This document shows positions 6,981-16,272 of a DNA stretch of 64,000 nt, in pieces; position 1 is the first letter of the stretch, and each line of letters begins with the position of its first letter. A program made the translations under genes and the position numbers. The DNA lies in NCBI RefSeq assembly GCF_000235425.2, contig NZ_KI912266.1, positions 7,769,130 through 7,833,129 of the forward strand. Reading direction: 5' to 3'. A model generated the notes under the pieces. It searched no databases. It saw only the letters and a program-made list of their open reading frames with translations, and was not told where the DNA came from. The stretch comes from Pseudofrankia saprophytica (GTDB lineage: Bacteria > Actinomycetota > Actinomycetes > Frankiales > Frankiaceae).

Positions 6981-8585
6981 TCAGTTTCGGATGGGCAGGA
7001 TCACCGCCGAGGGGTGGGCCGGGTCGTGGTACACAGATTGATCGGCGGCGCGCAGCGCGGTGGCGGTGGCGTGGGGTTCGCCGGTTCCGGGGTTGCGGGC
7101 GTAGCGGGGGAAGGCGCCGCTGGAGACCTGGACCCGGATGCGGTGGCCGCGCTTGAACCGGTACGCCGTCGGCCACAGCCGTACTGACGCACAGGAGATC
7201 TGACTGGCGACGGTCAGGCTGGCCAGACCGTCGCAGAGGTTGTGGGAGCGGCCGCGGGGGTCGACGTCACAGAGGCGGACGAAGACGTCCGCGTACGCGA
7301 GGCTGGAGCGGAACCAGATCTCGGCGCTGACCTCTCCGATGACCTCGACGTCCTCGTCGAGCGGCGCAGTGGTGTAGGTGAGCACGTCCGGGCGGGCCTC
7401 CAGCGCCCTGTTGTCAACGGACCCGCTGTCGCGGGTCATGCGCACCCCGCCGACCGCTGGGGTCGGATCGGCTGGGTCGTAGCGGTAGGTGTCCGCCGCC
7501 GATTCACCGGAGGGCTCGGTCGACAGTGCGCCGCCAGGCTGGAGGTGGTATCGCCGTGGTGAGTAGCCCTTCGGCGGCCAGGAGTCGAAGTCGCGCCAGG
7601 CACCTTCGCCCATCACGTACAGGCGCACCGGTGCGCGGTCCGGGGACTGCTCGCCGCGCGCATGGGCGAGGCCGAACGTGATGGCCTCCCGCAGCGGCGT
7701 GCCGTCGCGGGCCACGTGTACCCAGGGACCGACCGTCAACTGGGCCGGCCGGCCGGCCGCCTGCAGGATCTGGAAGTCACGAAGCTGGCCGGGCAGGAAG
7801 ATGTCGAACCAGCCGCCGACCGAGCAGACCGGAACGGTCGCGTCGGCCAGCCGGTGCCGGTGGTCGATCCCGGCCCACCGAGGCGCGTCCGGGTCATGGG
7901 CGAGGATGTCCTGGAGGTAGTCCGACCGGTGGCCGAGGGCGGCGATGTCGGCGTCGGCGAGCGGAACCGTGGACAGCGCGCGGCGAACCATTCTCGCCCC
8001 GAGAAGCTGCCGGACGATCGCCCACCGGCGTTCCTGGCCGGCGACCATGACACCCCAGTTGAACGGCGTCTCCAACGACATTCCGTCCTTCCGCAGGAAT
8101 TCCAGCGTCAGGGCGGACTCGGTCATCAGCGTGATCATCGCCTTGACCTCGGGCGGGAGACGGTCGGCCACCGCCCACTGCACGTAACCGAGGTAGCTTG
8201 CGCCGAAGAGCACGATCGAGCCGGCGAACCAGGGCTGCTTGACCAGCCAGTCCAGCGTCGCCAGGCCGTCATCCCGCTCCTGCCGTAACGGGTCGAACAC
8301 GCCGCCGGAACCGAACGTGCCCCGCACGCTCTGGATCAGCACCTGAAACCCGCGTTCGGCCAGCGGCCTGGCCATGGCCGAGCCGACTATTCCCCGCCGG
8401 CCGTAGGGCGAGCGCAGCAGAGCGATGGGTAAGGACTCGCCCCCAGCACGCGGTGCCCACCGGTCCGCCAGCAGTTCGACCCCGTCCGGCATCGACACCC
8501 GAAGATCCCGCTGAACGACCAGGTCCCGGGTAGACGGCGGGGGAAGCTTCAACTGGCGCTGAATGAGACGACTGCTCAGGTTCAC
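6981..8585 (-). CDS. CocE/NonD-family alpha/beta hydrolase (acyl esterase)
   Basis: 534 residues from GTG 8585, which has GGAG about 8 nt upstream; a longer open frame upstream runs into boxB on the same strand and is rejected. Nucleophile motif GASYLGY gives Ser130; Asp261 (GGWFDIF) and His290 (GPWVH) complete the triad, and Tyr61 (SPYGRRG) sits where CocE has its oxyanion Tyr. The C-terminal jelly-roll domain (about 370-534) is characteristic of X-Pro dipeptidyl-peptidase/CocE enzymes. The family hydrolyses esters or amides; the founding cocaine esterase releases benzoate from a benzoyl ester. It lies 55 bp downstream of boxB on the same strand, so it probably belongs to the box operon. No signal peptide, so cytoplasmic. 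Confidence 0.88.
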   Translation of the reverse strand: MNLSSRLIQRQLKLPPPSTRDLVVQRDLRVSMPDGVELLADRWAPRAGGESLPIALLRSPYGRRGIVGSAMARPLAERGFQVLIQSVRGTFGSGGVFDPLRQERDDGLATLDWLVKQPWFAGSIVLFGASYLGYVQWAVADRLPPEVKAMITLMTESALTLEFLRKDGMSLETPFNWGVMVAGQERRWAIVRQLLGARMVRRALSTVPLADADIAALGHRSDYLQDILAHDPDAPRWAGIDHRHRLADATVPVCSVGGWFDIFLPGQLRDFQILQAAGRPAQLTVGPWVHVARDGTPLREAITFGLAHARGEQSPDRAPVRLYVMGEGAWRDFDSWPPKGYSPRRYHLQPGGALSTEPSGESAADTYRYDPADPTPAVGGVRMTRDSGSVDNRALEARPDVLTYTTAPLDEDVEVIGEVSAEIWFRSSLAYADVFVRLCDVDPRGRSHNLCDGLASLTVASQISCASVRLWPTAYRFKRGHRIRVQVSSGAFPRYARNPGTGEPHATATALRAADQSVYHDPAHPSAVILPIRN

Positions 8586-8640
8586 TGGCTGCTCCAGGTC
8601 ATGCGTGGTGGTGGGCCGTTTTTCCCTTTCGCGGGCGCGG

Positions 8641-10116
8641 TCACGCGGGGAATCGGACGTAGTCGAACTCGACGGGCGTGTTGTTGATCCCATGCTTCGG
8701 GGGCGTAAGCCAGCTGGCGAACTGGCCGGGATCGAAGATGGGCCCCATGAGCCCGGACACCTGTGCCATGTCGTCGGCCGTCGGCAGCCAGTCGCCGAGC
8801 CGGGCGTGCCAGGCCGCCTCGTCGAGGATCTCGCCGTCCGGCGAGATCCGGTGGCCGACAAACGCGCCGACGGCGCGGTTGAAGCCAATGTGCGGCAGCG
8901 TCAGCCGAACGTCGACGCCGGCGTCCGCGAGCGCCGCGTTCCAGCGCCGCACGCCGGTGGCGCAGTCGGCCGCGTATTCATTACGCAGGTCCAGGTTCAA
9001 GCCGGTGAGCATCGGCACGGTGCGCGTGGTGAACGCGCCGTCGCGGACCTCCGGCACCTCAAGGATGGCCTCGGTGAGCACGTGGTCGTCGCGGCGGCGG
9101 GTCTCCAGCCAGCGGCCCTTGAGCCCGGTGGTGAAGTAGGACGCCACGTTCGACGACGTCTCCGAGCCGAACAGGTCCAGCGACACCGAGTAGTGGAAGT
9201 TGATGTACTTCTGGATGACGGACAGCGGGATGCCGCCGTGCCTCCACAGGTCGTCGGTGCCGTGCGCCCGCATCAGCTCAGCGGTCCGCTCCACCACGCG
9301 CTGTACGCCGGTGATGCCGACGAACATGTGGTGGGCCTCTTCCCTGAGCATGAACTCGCAGGTGCGGGCGAGCGGGTCGAAGGCGCTTTCCTTCAGCGTG
9401 CCGAGCTGGTACTTGCCGTCGCGGTCGGTGAAGTAGGTGAACATGAAGAACGCCAGCCAGTCGGGCGTCGCCTCGTTGAACGCGCCGAGGATGCGCGGCC
9501 GGTCGGAGTCACCGGAGTTGCGGCTCAGCAGCGCCTCGGCCTCCTCCCGGCCGTCCCGGCCGAAGTAGGCGTGCAGCAGGTAGACCATCGCCCACAGGTG
9601 GCGGCCCTCCTCGACGTTGACCTGCAGCAGGTTGCGCAGGTCGTAGAGGCTGGGCGCGGTCGCCCCCAGGTGGCGCTGCTGCTCGACGGAGGCCGGCTCG
9701 GTGTCCCCCTGCACGACGATGAGCCGGCGCAGATCCGAGCGGTACTCGCCGGGAACCTCGTTCCAGACCGGCTCACCCTTGTGCATCCCGAAGCCGATTT
9801 TCTTGTCGGGGTCGCTCTCGGCCAGGAAAATACCCCAGCGGTACTGCTCCATCGGCACGTGGTCGAAGTGCGCCCAGCCGTCCCGGCCGACGGCGACGGC
9901 GGTGCGCAGGTAGACGTCCCGGGTGGGCAGCGCGGGCCCGAGCCGGCGCCACCAGTCGAGAAACGCCGGCTGCCAGCTTTCCAGCGCCCGCCGCAGGCGG
10001 CGGTCGCCGGCGAGGTTGACGTTGTTCGGGATGCGCTGCGTGTAGTCGACCGGGCTGAGCGGCCCGGCGGGCGCCGGCGCGGCACCGACGGCCACGGCCG
10101 CGTCGGGAGTGGTCAC
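8641..10116 (-). CDS. boxB: Benzoyl-CoA 2,3-epoxidase oxygenase subunit BoxB
   Basis: 491 residues, GTG start at 10116, two bases after the boxC stop, so translation is probably coupled. BoxB is the di-iron oxygenase that converts benzoyl-CoA to its 2,3-epoxide with O2 and electrons from BoxA. The ligand pattern is intact: Glu140, Glu170-x-x-His173 (EEGRH), Asp231 (FTDRDG), and Glu260-x-x-His263 (REEAHHMF). The spacing matches the known BoxB ligand set with a constant offset of 20, as far as I remember it. Family-typical stretches such as NLLQVNVEEGRHLWAMVYLL and TPDWLAFFMFTYFTDRDGK are present. No boxA lies in the window. Confidence 0.95.
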   Translation of the reverse strand: MTTPDAAVAVGAAPAPAGPLSPVDYTQRIPNNVNLAGDRRLRRALESWQPAFLDWWRRLGPALPTRDVYLRTAVAVGRDGWAHFDHVPMEQYRWGIFLAESDPDKKIGFGMHKGEPVWNEVPGEYRSDLRRLIVVQGDTEPASVEQQRHLGATAPSLYDLRNLLQVNVEEGRHLWAMVYLLHAYFGRDGREEAEALLSRNSGDSDRPRILGAFNEATPDWLAFFMFTYFTDRDGKYQLGTLKESAFDPLARTCEFMLREEAHHMFVGITGVQRVVERTAELMRAHGTDDLWRHGGIPLSVIQKYINFHYSVSLDLFGSETSSNVASYFTTGLKGRWLETRRRDDHVLTEAILEVPEVRDGAFTTRTVPMLTGLNLDLRNEYAADCATGVRRWNAALADAGVDVRLTLPHIGFNRAVGAFVGHRISPDGEILDEAAWHARLGDWLPTADDMAQVSGLMGPIFDPGQFASWLTPPKHGINNTPVEFDYVRFPA

Positions 10117-10118
10117 GA

Positions 10119-11834
10119 TCAGACCCGCTTCCTGTCGTAGTCGGCGCGGCGGCCGGTGCCATAGCGCCCCAGGGCGCCGTTCGGGCCGGCGGCGTTCGGC
10201 CGCTGGAAGATCCAGTTCTGCCAGGCGGACAGCCTGCCGAAGATCTTGGTTTCGAAGGTCTCCGGGCCGGCGAACCGCAGGTTGGCCTCCAGGCCCGTGA
10301 GCGCGTCTGGGGAGAAGCTGGCGCGTTCGGAGAGCACCAGGCGGATCTCGTCGTCCCAGTCGAGGTCGTCTGGCGTCGCCGTCACGAGACCGGCCCGCGC
10401 CGCCTCGGCGGCAGCCAGGTCCGTGCCCGCCGTGGCGAGCGCGCCCTCGAGCGCGGCCGGGTCGCCCCGGAACCGGACGGCCAGCCGGCTGACGCCGGCC
10501 GACGTCGGCAGCGGCCCGGCGTTGAAGCCGTCAAGCCGGAGGACAGCGGCGGGTGCCGGGTCGTCATCCTCGGTGAACTCGCCGTCGAGCATGTACTGCC
10601 GGTCGGCCGCCAGCGCGAGCTCCAGCAGGCTTCCGACGAAGCAACTACCCGGCTCGACCAGCGCGATCAGGCTGCGCGAGCTGGCGTCCAGGCGGCGAAG
10701 TGTCCGCTTCCAGAACTGGATGACCTCGTTGACGAGCCAGTCGTCGCGGTGCGCGAGCAGCAGCTCGTCGACGGCGGCGACCGCCGCCGGGTCGCCCTCG
10801 GTGCGCAGCACCCAGGTGCCGACGGACAGCTCGTTGACCCGCAGCCGCAGGACCGCGTCGTCCAACGCGCGGGCGACGGCCAGCGGCCAGCAGCCGGCGC
10901 CCTGGGTGTGCACGTCCTCGAGCGAGGCCGGGGTCGCCGCCGGCCCGGTGCCCGGCCCGAGGACGGTCAGGTACGCCGTCGACGACGCCCGGTCGACGAC
11001 GACCCGCAGGTGGTCGTAGCTGGTCGTGTCCCCGTCGACGGCGCGGCGCAGCGGCGTGAGCCGGATCCCGGCCGCGGCATCCGGCCGGGGCGAGCGGGCG
11101 ACGGCGGCCTCGACGCGGGCAGCGAGCGCCGCGCCGAACCCACCCGGAGGCACCGCCTCGTCGACGAGGCCCCAGGCGACGGCGCGGGCGCCGCGCACCC
11201 CCTCGGCGGTGGTCGCGAAGACGTCGGCGAGGTCGCGGCGCACGGCCCGCTTGTCGACCATCCGGGTCAGCCCGCCGGTGCCGGGCAGCACCCCGAGCAG
11301 CGGGACCTCGGGCAGCGAGACCGCCGACGAGCCGTCGTCGACGAGCAGGATCTGCTCGCACGCCAGCGCGAGCTCGTAGCCGCCGCCAGCCGCCGTGCCG
11401 TTCAGTGCGGCGAGATAGGTCTGACCCGAGTGCGCGGTCGCGTCCTCCATGCCGTTACGGGTCTCGTTGGTGAACTTGCAGAAGTTCACCTTCCAGGGGT
11501 GCGACGACTGGGCGAGCATCCGGATGTTCGCGCCGGCGCAGAACATCCGCTCCTTGCCGCTGGTGACGACGACGACCTTGACCCCGGGGTGCTCGAAACG
11601 AAGCCGCTGGGTCGCGTCGTACAGCTCGATGTCGACGCCCAGGTCGTAGCTGTTCATCTTCAGCTCGTAGCCGGGCACGATCCCGCCGTCCGGGTCGACG
11701 TTCAGGGCCAGCGTCGCGACCGGCCCGTCGACCGACAGCCGCCAGTGGCGGTACCGGCCGGGCTCGGTGTCGAACGACACCGCCACGGGGCCCGCAAGCT
11801 CCGCGGACGGGGTCGCCGCGTCGGTCACGGTCAT
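10119..11834 (-). CDS. boxC: Benzoyl-CoA-dihydrodiol lyase BoxC
   Basis: 571 residues from ATG 11834, preceded by gggagg. An in-frame start 20 codons upstream would lie beyond the inverted-repeat operator and is rejected. BoxC opens the ring of the epoxide/dihydrodiol of benzoyl-CoA, giving 3,4-didehydroadipyl-CoA semialdehyde and formate. It is a crotonase-superfamily enzyme with two enoyl-CoA-hydratase-like halves: FCAGANIRML (about 94-103), NGTAAGGGYELALACE and SLPEVPLLGVLPGTGG in the first, and a weaker repeat (LIALVEPGSCFVGSLLELALAADRQYML) in the second. First gene of the leftward boxC-boxB-hydrolase operon, under the operator at 11850-11887. Confidence 0.95.
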   Translation of the reverse strand: MTVTDAATPSAELAGPVAVSFDTEPGRYRHWRLSVDGPVATLALNVDPDGGIVPGYELKMNSYDLGVDIELYDATQRLRFEHPGVKVVVVTSGKERMFCAGANIRMLAQSSHPWKVNFCKFTNETRNGMEDATAHSGQTYLAALNGTAAGGGYELALACEQILLVDDGSSAVSLPEVPLLGVLPGTGGLTRMVDKRAVRRDLADVFATTAEGVRGARAVAWGLVDEAVPPGGFGAALAARVEAAVARSPRPDAAAGIRLTPLRRAVDGDTTSYDHLRVVVDRASSTAYLTVLGPGTGPAATPASLEDVHTQGAGCWPLAVARALDDAVLRLRVNELSVGTWVLRTEGDPAAVAAVDELLLAHRDDWLVNEVIQFWKRTLRRLDASSRSLIALVEPGSCFVGSLLELALAADRQYMLDGEFTEDDDPAPAAVLRLDGFNAGPLPTSAGVSRLAVRFRGDPAALEGALATAGTDLAAAEAARAGLVTATPDDLDWDDEIRLVLSERASFSPDALTGLEANLRFAGPETFETKIFGRLSAWQNWIFQRPNAAGPNGALGRYGTGRRADYDRKRV

Positions 11835-11849
11835 CCGGCCTCCCAGTTT

Positions 11850-11887
11850 GCTACACAACTGTGCGCATGATGCACCGATTGTGTAGC
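11850..11887. promoter_or_regulatory. Inverted-repeat operator in front of boxC
   Basis: Perfect 9-bp arms GCTACACAA (11850-11858) and TTGTGTAGC (11879-11887) are separated by 20 bp, making a 38-bp dyad. It begins 16 bp upstream of the boxC start, in the divergent region shared with the PaaX-family gene. A related element with the same GCTACACA half-site and almost the same span lies at 12899-12935, in front of the CoA ligase. The likely ligand is the PaaX-like repressor encoded between them (inference). Confidence 0.7.
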
Positions 11888-12011
11888 CAGTCATCGGGCG
11901 GGCGCAAGAGCCCGGTCACGGCCCGCGCCCTCGCCGGCGGCGCTGGAACTGGGGCGGTACCTGGCACGATGGGACGCCCAGAGGAACGAGCCGGCCATGG
12001 GAGGTGACGAG

Positions 12012-12866
12012 ATGACCTCGCTGGACGGCCGCGTGGCGCCCACGGAGATCACCCGGCGCCGCGAGGTCGGCACGGCCAGCGCCCGCAGCCTGCTGCTGAC
12101 CGTGCTCGGCGAGTTCGTGCTGCCGCAGGACGCCCCCGTGTGGACGTCGACGCTCGTCCGGCTGCTCGGCGAGCTGGGGGTCGAGGAGAAGGCGGCCCGT
12201 CAGGCGCTCATGCGCCTGGCCGGCGACGGCTGGATCGTCGCCGACCGCCACGGCCGGCGGGCGCGTTGGAGCCTGACACCCGCGGGAGAGCGGCTGCTGG
12301 CCGACGGCACCCGGCGGATCTACTCCTTCGCGGCCTCGGTACGCCAGTGGGACGGGACGTGGCTGCTGCTGTCGGTGGACGTGCCCGAGGGGGGGCGCGC
12401 CCTGCGCCAGAAGCTGCGTACCCGGCTGGCCTGGGCCGGCTTCGGGCAACTGCCGGGCGGCCTGTGGATCTCGCCGCGGCCCGAGCGGGAGGAGGAGGCG
12501 GCGCGGGCGCTGGCCGACCTGGGGCTGGGCGACGCCGCGCTGTCCTTCCGGGCCCGCTCCGGCGCGGTCGGGGCGCCCGACGCGATGGTCCGCCAGGCCT
12601 GGGACCTCGAGGAGCTCGCGCACGACTACGACGAGTTCCTGCGCGCCGTTACGTCGCTCGAGCCGGACGGGCCCGGCCAGACGCTCGCCTACCAGGTCCG
12701 GCTGGTCCAGGAGTGGCGCCGCTTCCCGCTACGTGACCCCGGCCTGCCGCGCCAGTTCCTGCCGGTCGAGTGGAGCGGCGAGGTGGCGGCCGACCTGTTC
12801 CACCGCCGGCACGCCGCCTGGGCCGGCCTTGCCTGGACCGGCTGGCGCGCGCTCGCCGCCGAGTGA
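12012..12866 (+). CDS. PaaX-family transcriptional repressor, probable regulator of the box locus
   Basis: 284 residues from ATG 12012. An in-frame ATG at 11997 exists, but the ribosome site GGGAGGTGA (11999-12007) lies just after it and fits 12012. The N-terminal winged-helix domain (about 20-90: ARSLLLTVLGEFVLPQ, VRLLGELGVEEKAARQALMRLAGDGWI) is followed by the PaaX central domain (TWLLLSVDVPE, RTRLAWAGFGQLPGGLWISPR) and the C-terminal part (EWRRFPLRDPGLPRQFLPVEW). PaaX of E. coli represses phenylacetate genes and is released by phenylacetyl-CoA. By context this one may sense benzoyl-CoA; that is inference. Confidence 0.9.
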   Translation: MTSLDGRVAPTEITRRREVGTASARSLLLTVLGEFVLPQDAPVWTSTLVRLLGELGVEEKAARQALMRLAGDGWIVADRHGRRARWSLTPAGERLLADGTRRIYSFAASVRQWDGTWLLLSVDVPEGGRALRQKLRTRLAWAGFGQLPGGLWISPRPEREEEAARALADLGLGDAALSFRARSGAVGAPDAMVRQAWDLEELAHDYDEFLRAVTSLEPDGPGQTLAYQVRLVQEWRRFPLRDPGLPRQFLPVEWSGEVAADLFHRRHAAWAGLAWTGWRALAAE

Positions 12867-12898
12867 TCGCGGCGGGTTGTCCCTGGTGGCCACAACCT

Positions 12899-12935
12899 GC
12901 TACACACATCGGAATTTGATCCGTTTACCTGTAGT
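12899..12935. promoter_or_regulatory. Operator-like repeat and -10-like hexamer in front of the CoA ligase
   Basis: GCTACACA (12899-12906) repeats the left half-site of the boxC operator exactly. A degenerate partner, tgtag (12930-12934), lies at nearly the same span (37 versus 38 bp). A -10-like TATCCT is at 12955-12960, so the right half would overlap its -35 region. Just upstream, ggttgt/acaacc (12875-12897) forms another short inverted repeat. Confidence 0.5.
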
Positions 12936-13023: not shown

Positions 13024-14703
13024 ATGACCACGACGTCCTCACCAGGCCAGTCCGCTCTCGCCGGGACCGCGGGGTTCAACGCCTACGACTGGCTGTTACG
13101 CCGGCGCGCCGCCGACGATCCGGCGAGACGGGCCGTCATCGCCGTCGACGCCGCCGGCCGCGCGCGGGAACTCAGCTACGGCGACCTCGACGCCCTGGTC
13201 GCCCAGTGCGGGGCCGGGCTCGTCGCCGCCGGCCTGCGCCGCGAGGAGCGCTTCGTCCTGTGCATGGCGGACGGGCCGGAGCTGGTGGCGCTGTTCCTGG
13301 CCGGGCTGCGCATCGGCGCGGTCCCGGTGCCCGTCAGCACGATGCTCACCGGCAAGGACCTCGCGACCATCCTCGCCGACAGCCTCGCCCGGCTCCTCGT
13401 GGTCAGCGCGGAGTTCGCCGCCACCGCGCACGCGGCCGTGGCCGACCTCTCGGGCGCGGCCACCCCGCCGGTCCGCCTGGTCGTCGCCGGCGGCGCGCCA
13501 GCCGCCGCCGCGCCCGGCGCGGCCGCGGCGTCGACCTTCGAGAAGTTCCTCGCCGCGGGCAGCGGTGAGCGGGTGCCGCTCGCCGACACGCGCTACGACA
13601 GCCCCGGGTTCTGGCTCTACACGTCCGGCACCACCGGCACGCCGAAAGCGGCGATGCACCGCCACGGGTCGCTGCGCGACACCGTCGACACCTACGCCAC
13701 CGATGTGCTCGACATCCGGCCCGACGACGTCACCTTCTCCGTCGCCAAGGTCTTCTTCGCCTACGGCCTGGGCAACAGCCTGACCTTCCCGTTCGCTGCC
13801 GGGGCGACGACCGTCCTCGCCCACGCGCGGCCGAACCCGACGGCCGTCGCCCGGGTCGTCACCGAGCACCGGCCGACGCTGTTCTTCGCTGGCCCGACGT
13901 TCTACGCCGCGCTCCTCGCCGCCGACCTGCCCGCCGACACCTTCGCCAGCGTCCGCCTCGCGGTGAGCGCCGGCGAGGCCTGCCCCGCCGACCTGCTGCG
14001 CCGCTTCCAGCGGCGCTTCGGCATCGAGGTCCTCGACGGCATCGGCTCCACCGAGATGCTGCACATCTTCCTGTCCAACCGCCCCGGCCGTGTCCGGCCC
14101 GGCACCACCGGAACGCCCGTCGCCGGCTACGACCTGCGCCTCGTCGACAGCGACGGCCGCCACGTCACGCCCGGCGAGCCCGGCCAGCTGATGGTCCGCG
14201 GCCGCTCGGCGGCCAGCGGCTACTGGTGCCGCGCCGACATCTCCCGCCAGGTGTTCGAGGGCCCGTGGACCCGAACCGGCGACATATATGTCGAGGACGA
14301 GGACGGCTACTACACCTGCCTCGGCCGCACCGGCGACGTCCTGAAGGCGGGCGGCATCTGGGTCTCCCCCGGCGAGGTCGAGGAACGGCTACGGGCCCAC
14401 CCCGCGGTCGCGCAGGCCGTCGTCGTCGCGGTCACCGACCACGACGGCCTGGAGACCCCGGTCGCCTGCGTCGTCCCGGCCCCCGGCGAGCAGGTCGGCG
14501 AGGCCGACCTCGTCGCCTTCTGCCGCGAAGGACTCGCCGCATTCAAGCGCCCCCGCCGCGTGTTCGTCCTCCCTGAGCTCCCCCTCACCGGCACCGGCAA
14601 GATCGCCCGCTCCCAGGTCCGCCATCTGGCCACCACCCTGATGACCAACCCGGACGAGCCCACCACGCCCGCCGAGCCGTCCCCGCTCACCACCGCCAAC
14701 TGA
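13024..14703 (+). CDS. Benzoate--CoA ligase (ANL superfamily acyl-CoA synthetase)
   Basis: 559 residues from ATG 13024 with AGGAGG 7 nt upstream. Such enzymes activate an aromatic acid with ATP and CoA via an acyl-adenylate. P-loop-like motif YTSGTTGTPKAAMHRH, the A5 motif DGIGSTEMLHIFLSN, the A7 TGDIYVEDEDGYY, the A8 hinge GRTGDVLKAGGIWVSP, and the C-terminal catalytic lysine in LPLTGTGKIARS are all present. FAYGLGNSLTFPFAAGATTVL and STEMLHIFLSN are the features I associate with benzoate-CoA ligases (BclA/BadA) rather than fatty-acid ligases. Next to PaaX and divergent from boxCB, it most likely makes benzoyl-CoA for BoxB; another aromatic acid cannot be excluded. Confidence 0.88.
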   Translation: MTTTSSPGQSALAGTAGFNAYDWLLRRRAADDPARRAVIAVDAAGRARELSYGDLDALVAQCGAGLVAAGLRREERFVLCMADGPELVALFLAGLRIGAVPVPVSTMLTGKDLATILADSLARLLVVSAEFAATAHAAVADLSGAATPPVRLVVAGGAPAAAAPGAAAASTFEKFLAAGSGERVPLADTRYDSPGFWLYTSGTTGTPKAAMHRHGSLRDTVDTYATDVLDIRPDDVTFSVAKVFFAYGLGNSLTFPFAAGATTVLAHARPNPTAVARVVTEHRPTLFFAGPTFYAALLAADLPADTFASVRLAVSAGEACPADLLRRFQRRFGIEVLDGIGSTEMLHIFLSNRPGRVRPGTTGTPVAGYDLRLVDSDGRHVTPGEPGQLMVRGRSAASGYWCRADISRQVFEGPWTRTGDIYVEDEDGYYTCLGRTGDVLKAGGIWVSPGEVEERLRAHPAVAQAVVVAVTDHDGLETPVACVVPAPGEQVGEADLVAFCREGLAAFKRPRRVFVLPELPLTGTGKIARSQVRHLATTLMTNPDEPTTPAEPSPLTTAN

Positions 14704-14883: not shown

Positions 14884-16272
14884 ATGACCCACCGATCCGG
14901 TCCTGAGATCTCCATCGTCGCGACGCCCCCGGCGACGAGATGGACGATGCGCGGGCAGCATGCGAGGAACCTCCTCGACGGGCTGCCTTCCGTGCGGGCG
15001 CGGTATCGGCGGGCGGGCCTGCGCCTGACCGCCTTATCCGCCCTGGCCGCGAGCCTGTTCCTGACTGCCGGATGTGGGAGCGGTGGCGACAACAGCGACG
15101 AGAACCCGCCAGCGGACAGCGCCCCGAGCACGGCCGGGGTGCTCGGGCCGGCGGCCCCGGCCCAGGGGACCCCGGTCCGGATCGGAACAATCTCGGACGG
15201 CAAGACCCCCTTCGGGGACGTGTCCATCCAGTTCCACGTGGCCGACGCCACCATCAAGTACCTGAACGAGCACCGCTCTGGCATCGCCGGCCGGCCTATT
15301 CAACTGGTCACGTGTGAGGCCCAGGCGGACCCGAGCAAGAGCATCGACTGCGCGAACCGCATGATCCAGGAGAACGTCGTCGCCGTCGTCCTGCCCGAGC
15401 TGACAGCGATGGATGACGTCTGGAGGACGCTGCACGACGCGAAGATGCCGGTGATGCTCTTCGGCGCGAGCAGCTCGACGCTGCTGGCCGACACCGAGTC
15501 GACCTTCACCCTGGGTGATCCGCTGTTCGGCCGGGTGAGCCTGCCCATCCAGCTCGCGAAGGACTCCGGCGCCACCAAGGTGACGGCGATCGTGATCGAC
15601 GTGCCGGCCGCGCTGAGTCTCTATGACACGATCGCGCCGCCGATATTCGAGGAAGCCGGCATCGGCCTCAAGGTCGTCCGGGTTCCCCCGGGCACCCCCG
15701 ACATGACGCCCCAGCTGCAGAGCCTGGCCGCCAGCGACCCCGGAGTCGTGCAGATCGTGGGGAACGACGCGTTCTGCATCAGCGCGTTGAACGGTCTGCG
15801 GGCGATCGGATTCAACGGCAAGATCACCGCTATCGCGCAGTGCATCACCGACGCGACCCGCCGGGCGGTGCCGGCGGACATGCTCGAGGGGATAGCCGTC
15901 GCCGCCGCGACGCCGATCGGAACGGACAACCCGTCGACACGCCTTTACAACGCCGTCGTGGAAACCTACGGCAACGGCATCGACACCAGCTCGGCCGGCG
16001 GGGTGAGCATGTTCATCGCGCTCGCCGGCTTCCAGGCGGCGACCGAGGGGATCTCAGGGAGAGACATCACCCCGGAGGCCATCGTCGCTGCAATCAAGGC
16101 GATGCCGGAGAAGGAGCTGCCGGGCGCGGGCGGCTTGCGGTTCCGCTGCAACGGCAAGGCCAGCCCGACAGCGCCGGCGATCTGCGTCCGCGGCGGGCTG
16201 ATCACCACCCTGAACGCCAAGGGCCAGCCCACTGACTATAAGGCGGTCGGTTCCTCTCCCATCGGAGGCTGA
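14884..16272 (+). CDS. ABC transporter solute-binding lipoprotein, branched-chain amino acid/aromatic type
   Basis: 462 residues from ATG 14884 (gggag upstream); ATG 14947 would give a shorter signal peptide. The signal sequence ends in LFLTAGC, with the lipid-attached Cys at 64. The mature protein is a type-1 periplasmic-binding fold (LivK/receptor family): VRIGTISDGKTPFGDVS, DPSKSIDCANRMIQENVVAVV, GDPLFGRVSLPIQLAKDSGATKVTAIVID. Homologues bind branched-chain amino acids, and in soil bacteria often aromatic acids. Its position after the CoA ligase suggests uptake of the aromatic substrate; permease and ATPase genes are not here. Confidence 0.85.
   Translation: MTHRSGPEISIVATPPATRWTMRGQHARNLLDGLPSVRARYRRAGLRLTALSALAASLFLTAGCGSGGDNSDENPPADSAPSTAGVLGPAAPAQGTPVRIGTISDGKTPFGDVSIQFHVADATIKYLNEHRSGIAGRPIQLVTCEAQADPSKSIDCANRMIQENVVAVVLPELTAMDDVWRTLHDAKMPVMLFGASSSTLLADTESTFTLGDPLFGRVSLPIQLAKDSGATKVTAIVIDVPAALSLYDTIAPPIFEEAGIGLKVVRVPPGTPDMTPQLQSLAASDPGVVQIVGNDAFCISALNGLRAIGFNGKITAIAQCITDATRRAVPADMLEGIAVAAATPIGTDNPSTRLYNAVVETYGNGIDTSSAGGVSMFIALAGFQAATEGISGRDITPEAIVAAIKAMPEKELPGAGGLRFRCNGKASPTAPAICVRGGLITTLNAKGQPTDYKAVGSSPIGG

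Follow-up and report, generated by a model that had tools for sequence, protein, structure and literature searches.

Candidate operators of a PaaX-family regulator at an actinobacterial box locus for aerobic benzoyl-CoA degradation

The box locus and its neighboring PaaX-family gene

The window, a 64,000-nucleotide stretch of Pseudofrankia saprophytica DNA, carries boxB, boxC and a ligase gene of the aerobic benzoyl-CoA pathway, with a gene for a PaaX-family protein lying between boxC and the ligase gene. The features on which the argument rests are the following, with coordinates counted from the first nucleotide of the window.

8641..10116, minus strand: boxB, benzoyl-CoA 2,3-epoxidase subunit, in the boxC operon (TIGR03225, 756 bits; cut-off, 499)
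10119..11834, minus strand: boxC, 2,3-epoxybenzoyl-CoA dihydrolase (TIGR03222, 863 bits; cut-off, 712)
11839..11844, minus strand: boxC ribosome-binding site GGGAGG, read from the sequence
11850..11887, minus strand: boxC-side candidate operator, dyad GCTACACAA-N20-TTGTGTAGC, span 38 bp
11997..12866, plus strand: PaaX-family regulator of the box-linked clade (PF07848, PF20803 and PF08223, all above cut-off)
12900..12934, plus strand: ligase-side candidate operator, CTACA-N25-TGTAG, 90 bp 5' of the ligase start
13024..14703, plus strand: benzoate-CoA ligase family protein (TIGR02262, 515 bits; cut-off, 375)

The PaaX-family protein has its three Pfam domains in order, at 66.2, 72.4 and 61.6 bits against cut-offs of 24.8, 24 and 22, and it is homologous to the solved E. 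coli PaaX structure 8a39 (E=5e-28). Against the PaaX equivalog model TIGR02277, however, it scores 166.7 bits, under the cut-off of 264.55. Thus, the window regulator belongs to the PaaX family but is not the curated phenylacetate repressor. The initial annotation had predicted a PaaX-type regulator of a separate branch, encoded between two binding sites, and both parts of that prediction hold: the gene lies between the two candidate operators listed above, and its product falls in the box-linked clade described below.

Several neighboring or expected genes deserve mention. Following boxB on the same strand is a gene for a CocE/NonD-type S15 hydrolase (6981-8888; TIGR00976, 325 bits; cut-off, 66). 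Benzoate is the product released by cocaine-esterase-like enzymes, and the hydrolase may feed the box pathway; its gene is not a conserved feature of other box loci. A solute-binding protein gene at 14884 was considered as a regulon member and dropped, as other box loci gave weak hits only. No relative of boxD, which encodes 3,4-dehydroadipyl-CoA semialdehyde dehydrogenase, was found in the window's own genome at E<=1e-40, and the boxA family is absent among the genes conserved at box loci. Finally, boxC was not found in the other sampled members of the genus, which makes lateral acquisition of the box cluster a possibility.

Two dyads with a common core

Upstream of boxC, GCTACACAA occupies positions 11850-11858 and its exact reverse complement occupies positions 11879-11887. 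The sequence thus confirms the 38-bp dyad with perfect 9-bp arms that had been annotated before boxC, and 15 bp separate it from the start codon at 11834. The dyad by itself was rejected as significant because such repeats are common in the GC-rich window: at 72% GC, perfect 9-bp inverted repeats with gaps of 3-40 number 124, against 51 in shuffles. Within the gap between boxC and paaX alone, a perfect 9-bp dyad has a P of about 0.04.

A shorter core is what the two sites share. On the boxC side, CTACA at 11851-11855 and TGTAG at 11882-11886 enclose 26 bp (core, 11851-11886). On the ligase side, the copy begins at 12899, and CTACA at 12900-12904 and TGTAG at 12930-12934, both exact, enclose 25 bp. 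The two cores are identical in their half-sites and differ in the spacer. The initial annotation was right to place the same half-site before the ligase gene but had described its partner as weaker, whereas both core half-sites are exact. Moreover, it had taken GCTACACAA as the half-site of one shared operator; the conserved half-site is instead CTACA/TGTAG, and the two sites are separate copies.

Across the 9.98-Mb genome, CTACA-N25/26-TGTAG has two matches, at precisely these two places, while the 29 other spacers between 10 and 40 together give 12 sites. Other spacings served as the control in this search; the reversed pattern was unsuitable, as GATGT-type words are commoner in the genome. 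In the window, the two matches compare with 0.003 in shuffles. We conclude that the paired CTACA-N25/26-TGTAG pattern is not due to chance.

Recurrence of the site and the regulator in relatives

Conservation at homologous loci was the check set beforehand for the proposed operator; when run, it was widely passed, with core and spacing recurring before boxC in most relatives. An early view of the relatives' boxC promoters found CTACA preceding TTGACG and TGTAG at -10. In 1.4 Mb of loci, CTACA-Nd-YGTAG occurs 35 times at d=25, 19 times at d=26 and at most 3 times at any other d, counts that include some duplicates because a few loci overlap. With duplicates removed and up to one mismatch allowed, 36 of 47 boxC upstream regions fit d=25/26, other spacers giving at most 3. 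At the same mismatch limit and spacing, a site lies upstream of 27 of the 91 clade paaX genes. The same mismatch limit gave a site for 1 of 34 paralogous paaX genes and for 1 of 46 boxB genes, boxB being mostly internal to its operon. The single paralogue match is apparently the protein of G142, positioned within the clade in the tree. A dyad scan blind to the motif arrived at this pair of half-sites both upstream of boxC and upstream of clade paaX; at the paralogous actinobacterial paaX genes, it found nothing consistent or comparable. Moreover, among boxC promoters unused in defining the motif, namely, those of genomes whose clade PaaX lacked nearby box genes, 18 of 29 were positive at up to one mismatch and 3 more have exact cores at d=24. 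A Nonomuraea record from a different collection has one-mismatch sites 5' of boxC and of boxB. The dyads are copies of a single site, predicted to bind a regulator, that is kept across dozens of actinobacterial genera.

The site is missing from the promoters of many clade paaX genes, several Amycolatopsis boxC genes have none inside 230 bp, and two BoxR-type betaproteobacterial box clusters (L201 and L203) contain no exact CTACA dyad. Some families have a degenerate right half-site, TGTCA, as upstream of boxC in family f13 (L008, L011, L012, L013 and L166), where CTACA and TTGACG are kept. The Amycolatopsis-type boxC promoters L190 and L194 have exact cores with a spacer of 24, one base under the usual. 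We note also a CTACA-N25-CGTAG site with TTGACG at a contig end (L157:8987; G051:C89:17986-18020), about 14 kb from boxC.

Scanning 85,000 species gave 178 relatives, and 80 loci were kept. The box-linked PaaX proteins, including that of the window, form a clade with SH-aLRT support of 98, in which the sister of the window protein is from Geodermatophilaceae (support, 95). The subfamily is spread over Geodermatophilaceae, Pseudonocardiaceae, Streptomyces, Actinoallomurus, the window's genus and others. The recognition-helix motif EKxARQA occurs in 79 of 93 clade members and in 0 of 34 paralogues, a count that is biased, as the helix was among the two search patterns that retrieved most clade members. 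At 42 of the 80 clade paaX loci, boxB or boxC lies inside the analyzed flanks. Clade genomes without nearby box genes have boxC elsewhere in 32 of 37 cases, and in the other 5 no boxC was detectable anywhere. Within the class, boxC is present in 12 of 394 genomes, and all 12 encode a clade PaaX, comprising the window's own and 11 with 45-55% identity over its length. The 382 box-negative genomes hold one clear clade PaaX (G085); a second box-negative genome, G142 of the window's genus, encodes a PaaX relative that is 41% identical and lies inside the clade on a long branch.

These two genomes have sites of their own. In G142 (L136; C552:7294-7328), CTACA-N25-CGTAG precedes its own clade paaX, and in G085 (C86; L156:4414-4448), a site precedes genes for a 3-hydroxyacyl-CoA dehydrogenase and an alpha/beta hydrolase, boxC being absent from both. 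Separately, a metagenome-assembled genome labeled Chloroflexi (L020) contains a PaaX-boxC-boxB locus in which the PaaX belongs to the clade and a near match to the site is present, which suggests either transfer out of Actinomycetota or mislabeling.

The genes preceded by a site are boxC, paaX, the ligase gene, a box-linked amidohydrolase gene and, in one genome, boxD. Ligase promoters with the core occur in the window, in L069 and in L103/L167. The boxD gene is in G012, 1.8 Mb from the box cluster; its site lies 65 bp upstream of the start with TTGACG inside, and its product scores above the 3,4-dehydroadipyl-CoA semialdehyde dehydrogenase cut-off, an enzyme whose step comes after BoxC being thereby indicated. 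Sites at paaX promoters persist in L038, L050, L057 and L070, loci with no box gene closer than 8 kb. The linked families conserved over 26 box loci are limited to boxC, boxB, the ligase, PaaX and the amidohydrolase, a sixth conserved cluster resembling an antisense frame. Thus, PaaX is the sole conserved regulator. The amidohydrolase (L096:2509-3225, L030:9742-10458 and others) is linked to 12 of the 26 actinobacterial box loci, is absent from the window and has its own CTACA-N25-TGTAG in several genomes. In Geodermatophilaceae (L030:7858-7892), the paaX-side site lies between paaX and a divergent gene for an ABC-transporter solute-binding protein, which may belong to a system for benzoate uptake that shares this control.

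Proposed regulation and known systems

How the site is placed relative to the promoter bears on its nature. TTGAC starts at site position 11 in 29 of 34 N25 boxC sites, where the expected -10 and the right half-site overlap. The dyad thus spans both the -35 TTGACG and the -10, and the core promoter would be covered by any protein bound there. The same fixed register would be expected if the conserved blocks were promoter elements and their symmetry fortuitous. In Geodermatophilaceae, however, a TTGC element lies at position 19 instead (10 of 11 N26 sites) and the dyad is kept; because the promoter register shifts while the dyad remains, the dyad is not a by-product of the promoter. Moreover, the paaX sites and the window ligase site keep CTACA-N25/26-TGTAG without the TTGAC register, and the pattern is uncommon in promoters genome-wide. 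We give fortuitous symmetry next to no probability. In the window, no clear -35 and -10 could be assigned around either site. The operator lies only 15 bp from the boxC start codon, and thus, short of a long leader, the dyad and the core promoter of boxC would have to overlap.

Granted an operator, its reader could be a different regulator encoded elsewhere, whether TetR, BoxR-like XRE or other, and the linked PaaX would then be no reader at all. Short half-sites do not give the identity of the protein, and PaaX does not adjoin boxC in some genera. Nonetheless, no other regulator family is conserved over the 26 box loci, clade PaaX and boxC occur together, and the paaX promoter itself carries sites, including at loci where box genes are distant. 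The wide dyad also resembles the site reported for E. coli PaaX, whereas BoxR reads TGCA repeats (PMC6449761) and the two BoxR-type clusters lack the motif. A reader encoded elsewhere is very unlikely, and the neighboring PaaX-type repressor almost certainly reads the dyads. PaaX might also bind but activate, or answer another CoA ester, such as phenylacetyl-CoA or a substituted benzoyl-CoA. Indeed, as the clade scores under the PaaX equivalog cut-off, its ligand may differ from phenylacetyl-CoA. The coverage of -35 and -10 by the N25 operator, however, fits occlusion, and the controlled genes make and break benzoyl-CoA. We consider activation or another ligand rather improbable.

The reading we prefer, with a probability of roughly 0.87, is that the two dyads are operators of the PaaX-type repressor encoded between them and that benzoyl-CoA releases it. 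That PaaX binds, that it represses rather than activates and that its effector is benzoyl-CoA are proposals modeled on E. coli PaaX, which answers to phenylacetyl-CoA; linkage to the box genes also suggests the effector. The half-site centers are separated by 30 or 31 bp, close to three helical turns, and one or two PaaX dimers would contact the two CTACA half-sites on one face of the DNA. PaaX on the boxC-side site would block the promoter of boxC and boxB, and PaaX on the ligase-side site would block that of the ligase gene. When benzoate enters and is activated, the resulting benzoyl-CoA would bind PaaX, PaaX would leave the DNA, and the ligase and the ring-cleavage enzymes would be switched on together. 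It is also likely, though less so, that a benzoyl-CoA-responsive PaaX subfamily governs the aerobic box pathway generally across Actinomycetota, with CTACA-N25/26-TGTAG as its own operator code and a regulon of boxBC, the ligase gene, boxD, the box-linked amidohydrolase gene and its own gene.

If so, a candidate regulator and an exact operator can be assigned to aerobic benzoyl-CoA degradation in an entire phylum, a pathway for which we found no described regulator there, and Actinomycetota would have arrived at a solution independent of BoxR in Betaproteobacteria. The combination of a fixed wide spacing like that of E. coli PaaX with a new half-site and an altered helix makes PaaX-DNA recognition testable. 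Moreover, the motif can locate more pathway genes, boxD being an example, and could be used as a part of a benzoyl-CoA biosensor. Literature searches combining PaaX either with boxC or with both Streptomyces and benzoyl-CoA found no report of a PaaX box regulator, most subscription journals lying outside the search. The PaaX clade, the half-site and the regulon appear to be new, and the PaaX family is known.

Among known systems, BoxR and BzdR are XRE-family regulators of the benzoyl-CoA pathway in Betaproteobacteria, and PaaR, of the TetR type, regulates paa genes in actinobacteria, among others. BoxR and BzdR control the same enzymes as proposed here but belong to a protein family unrelated to PaaX; BoxR, also a box regulator in PMC10803450, reads TGCA repeats and controls boxC, boxB, the ligase gene and boxD (PMC6449761). 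PaaR responds to aryl-CoA (PMC9493321), as the box-linked PaaX is proposed to do, but differs in protein family and regulon, and no TetR gene is conserved at the 26 box loci. A 2026 survey of PaaX and PaaR covers phenylacetate clusters (PMC13186573). The PaaX proteins of E. coli and Pseudomonas, phenylacetyl-CoA-responsive repressors of paa genes, share the three-domain architecture but form a separate clade linked to paa rather than box genes. According to a review that reports no structure of a PaaX-DNA complex, E. coli PaaX binds TGATTC-N27-GAATCA and is released by phenylacetyl-CoA (PMC9493321). The site described here is likewise a widely spaced inverted repeat, but its half-site is CTACA rather than TGATTC, its spacer is 25 or 26, and the recognition helix reads VEEKAARQA where that of E. 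coli PaaX reads GERFVRTA.
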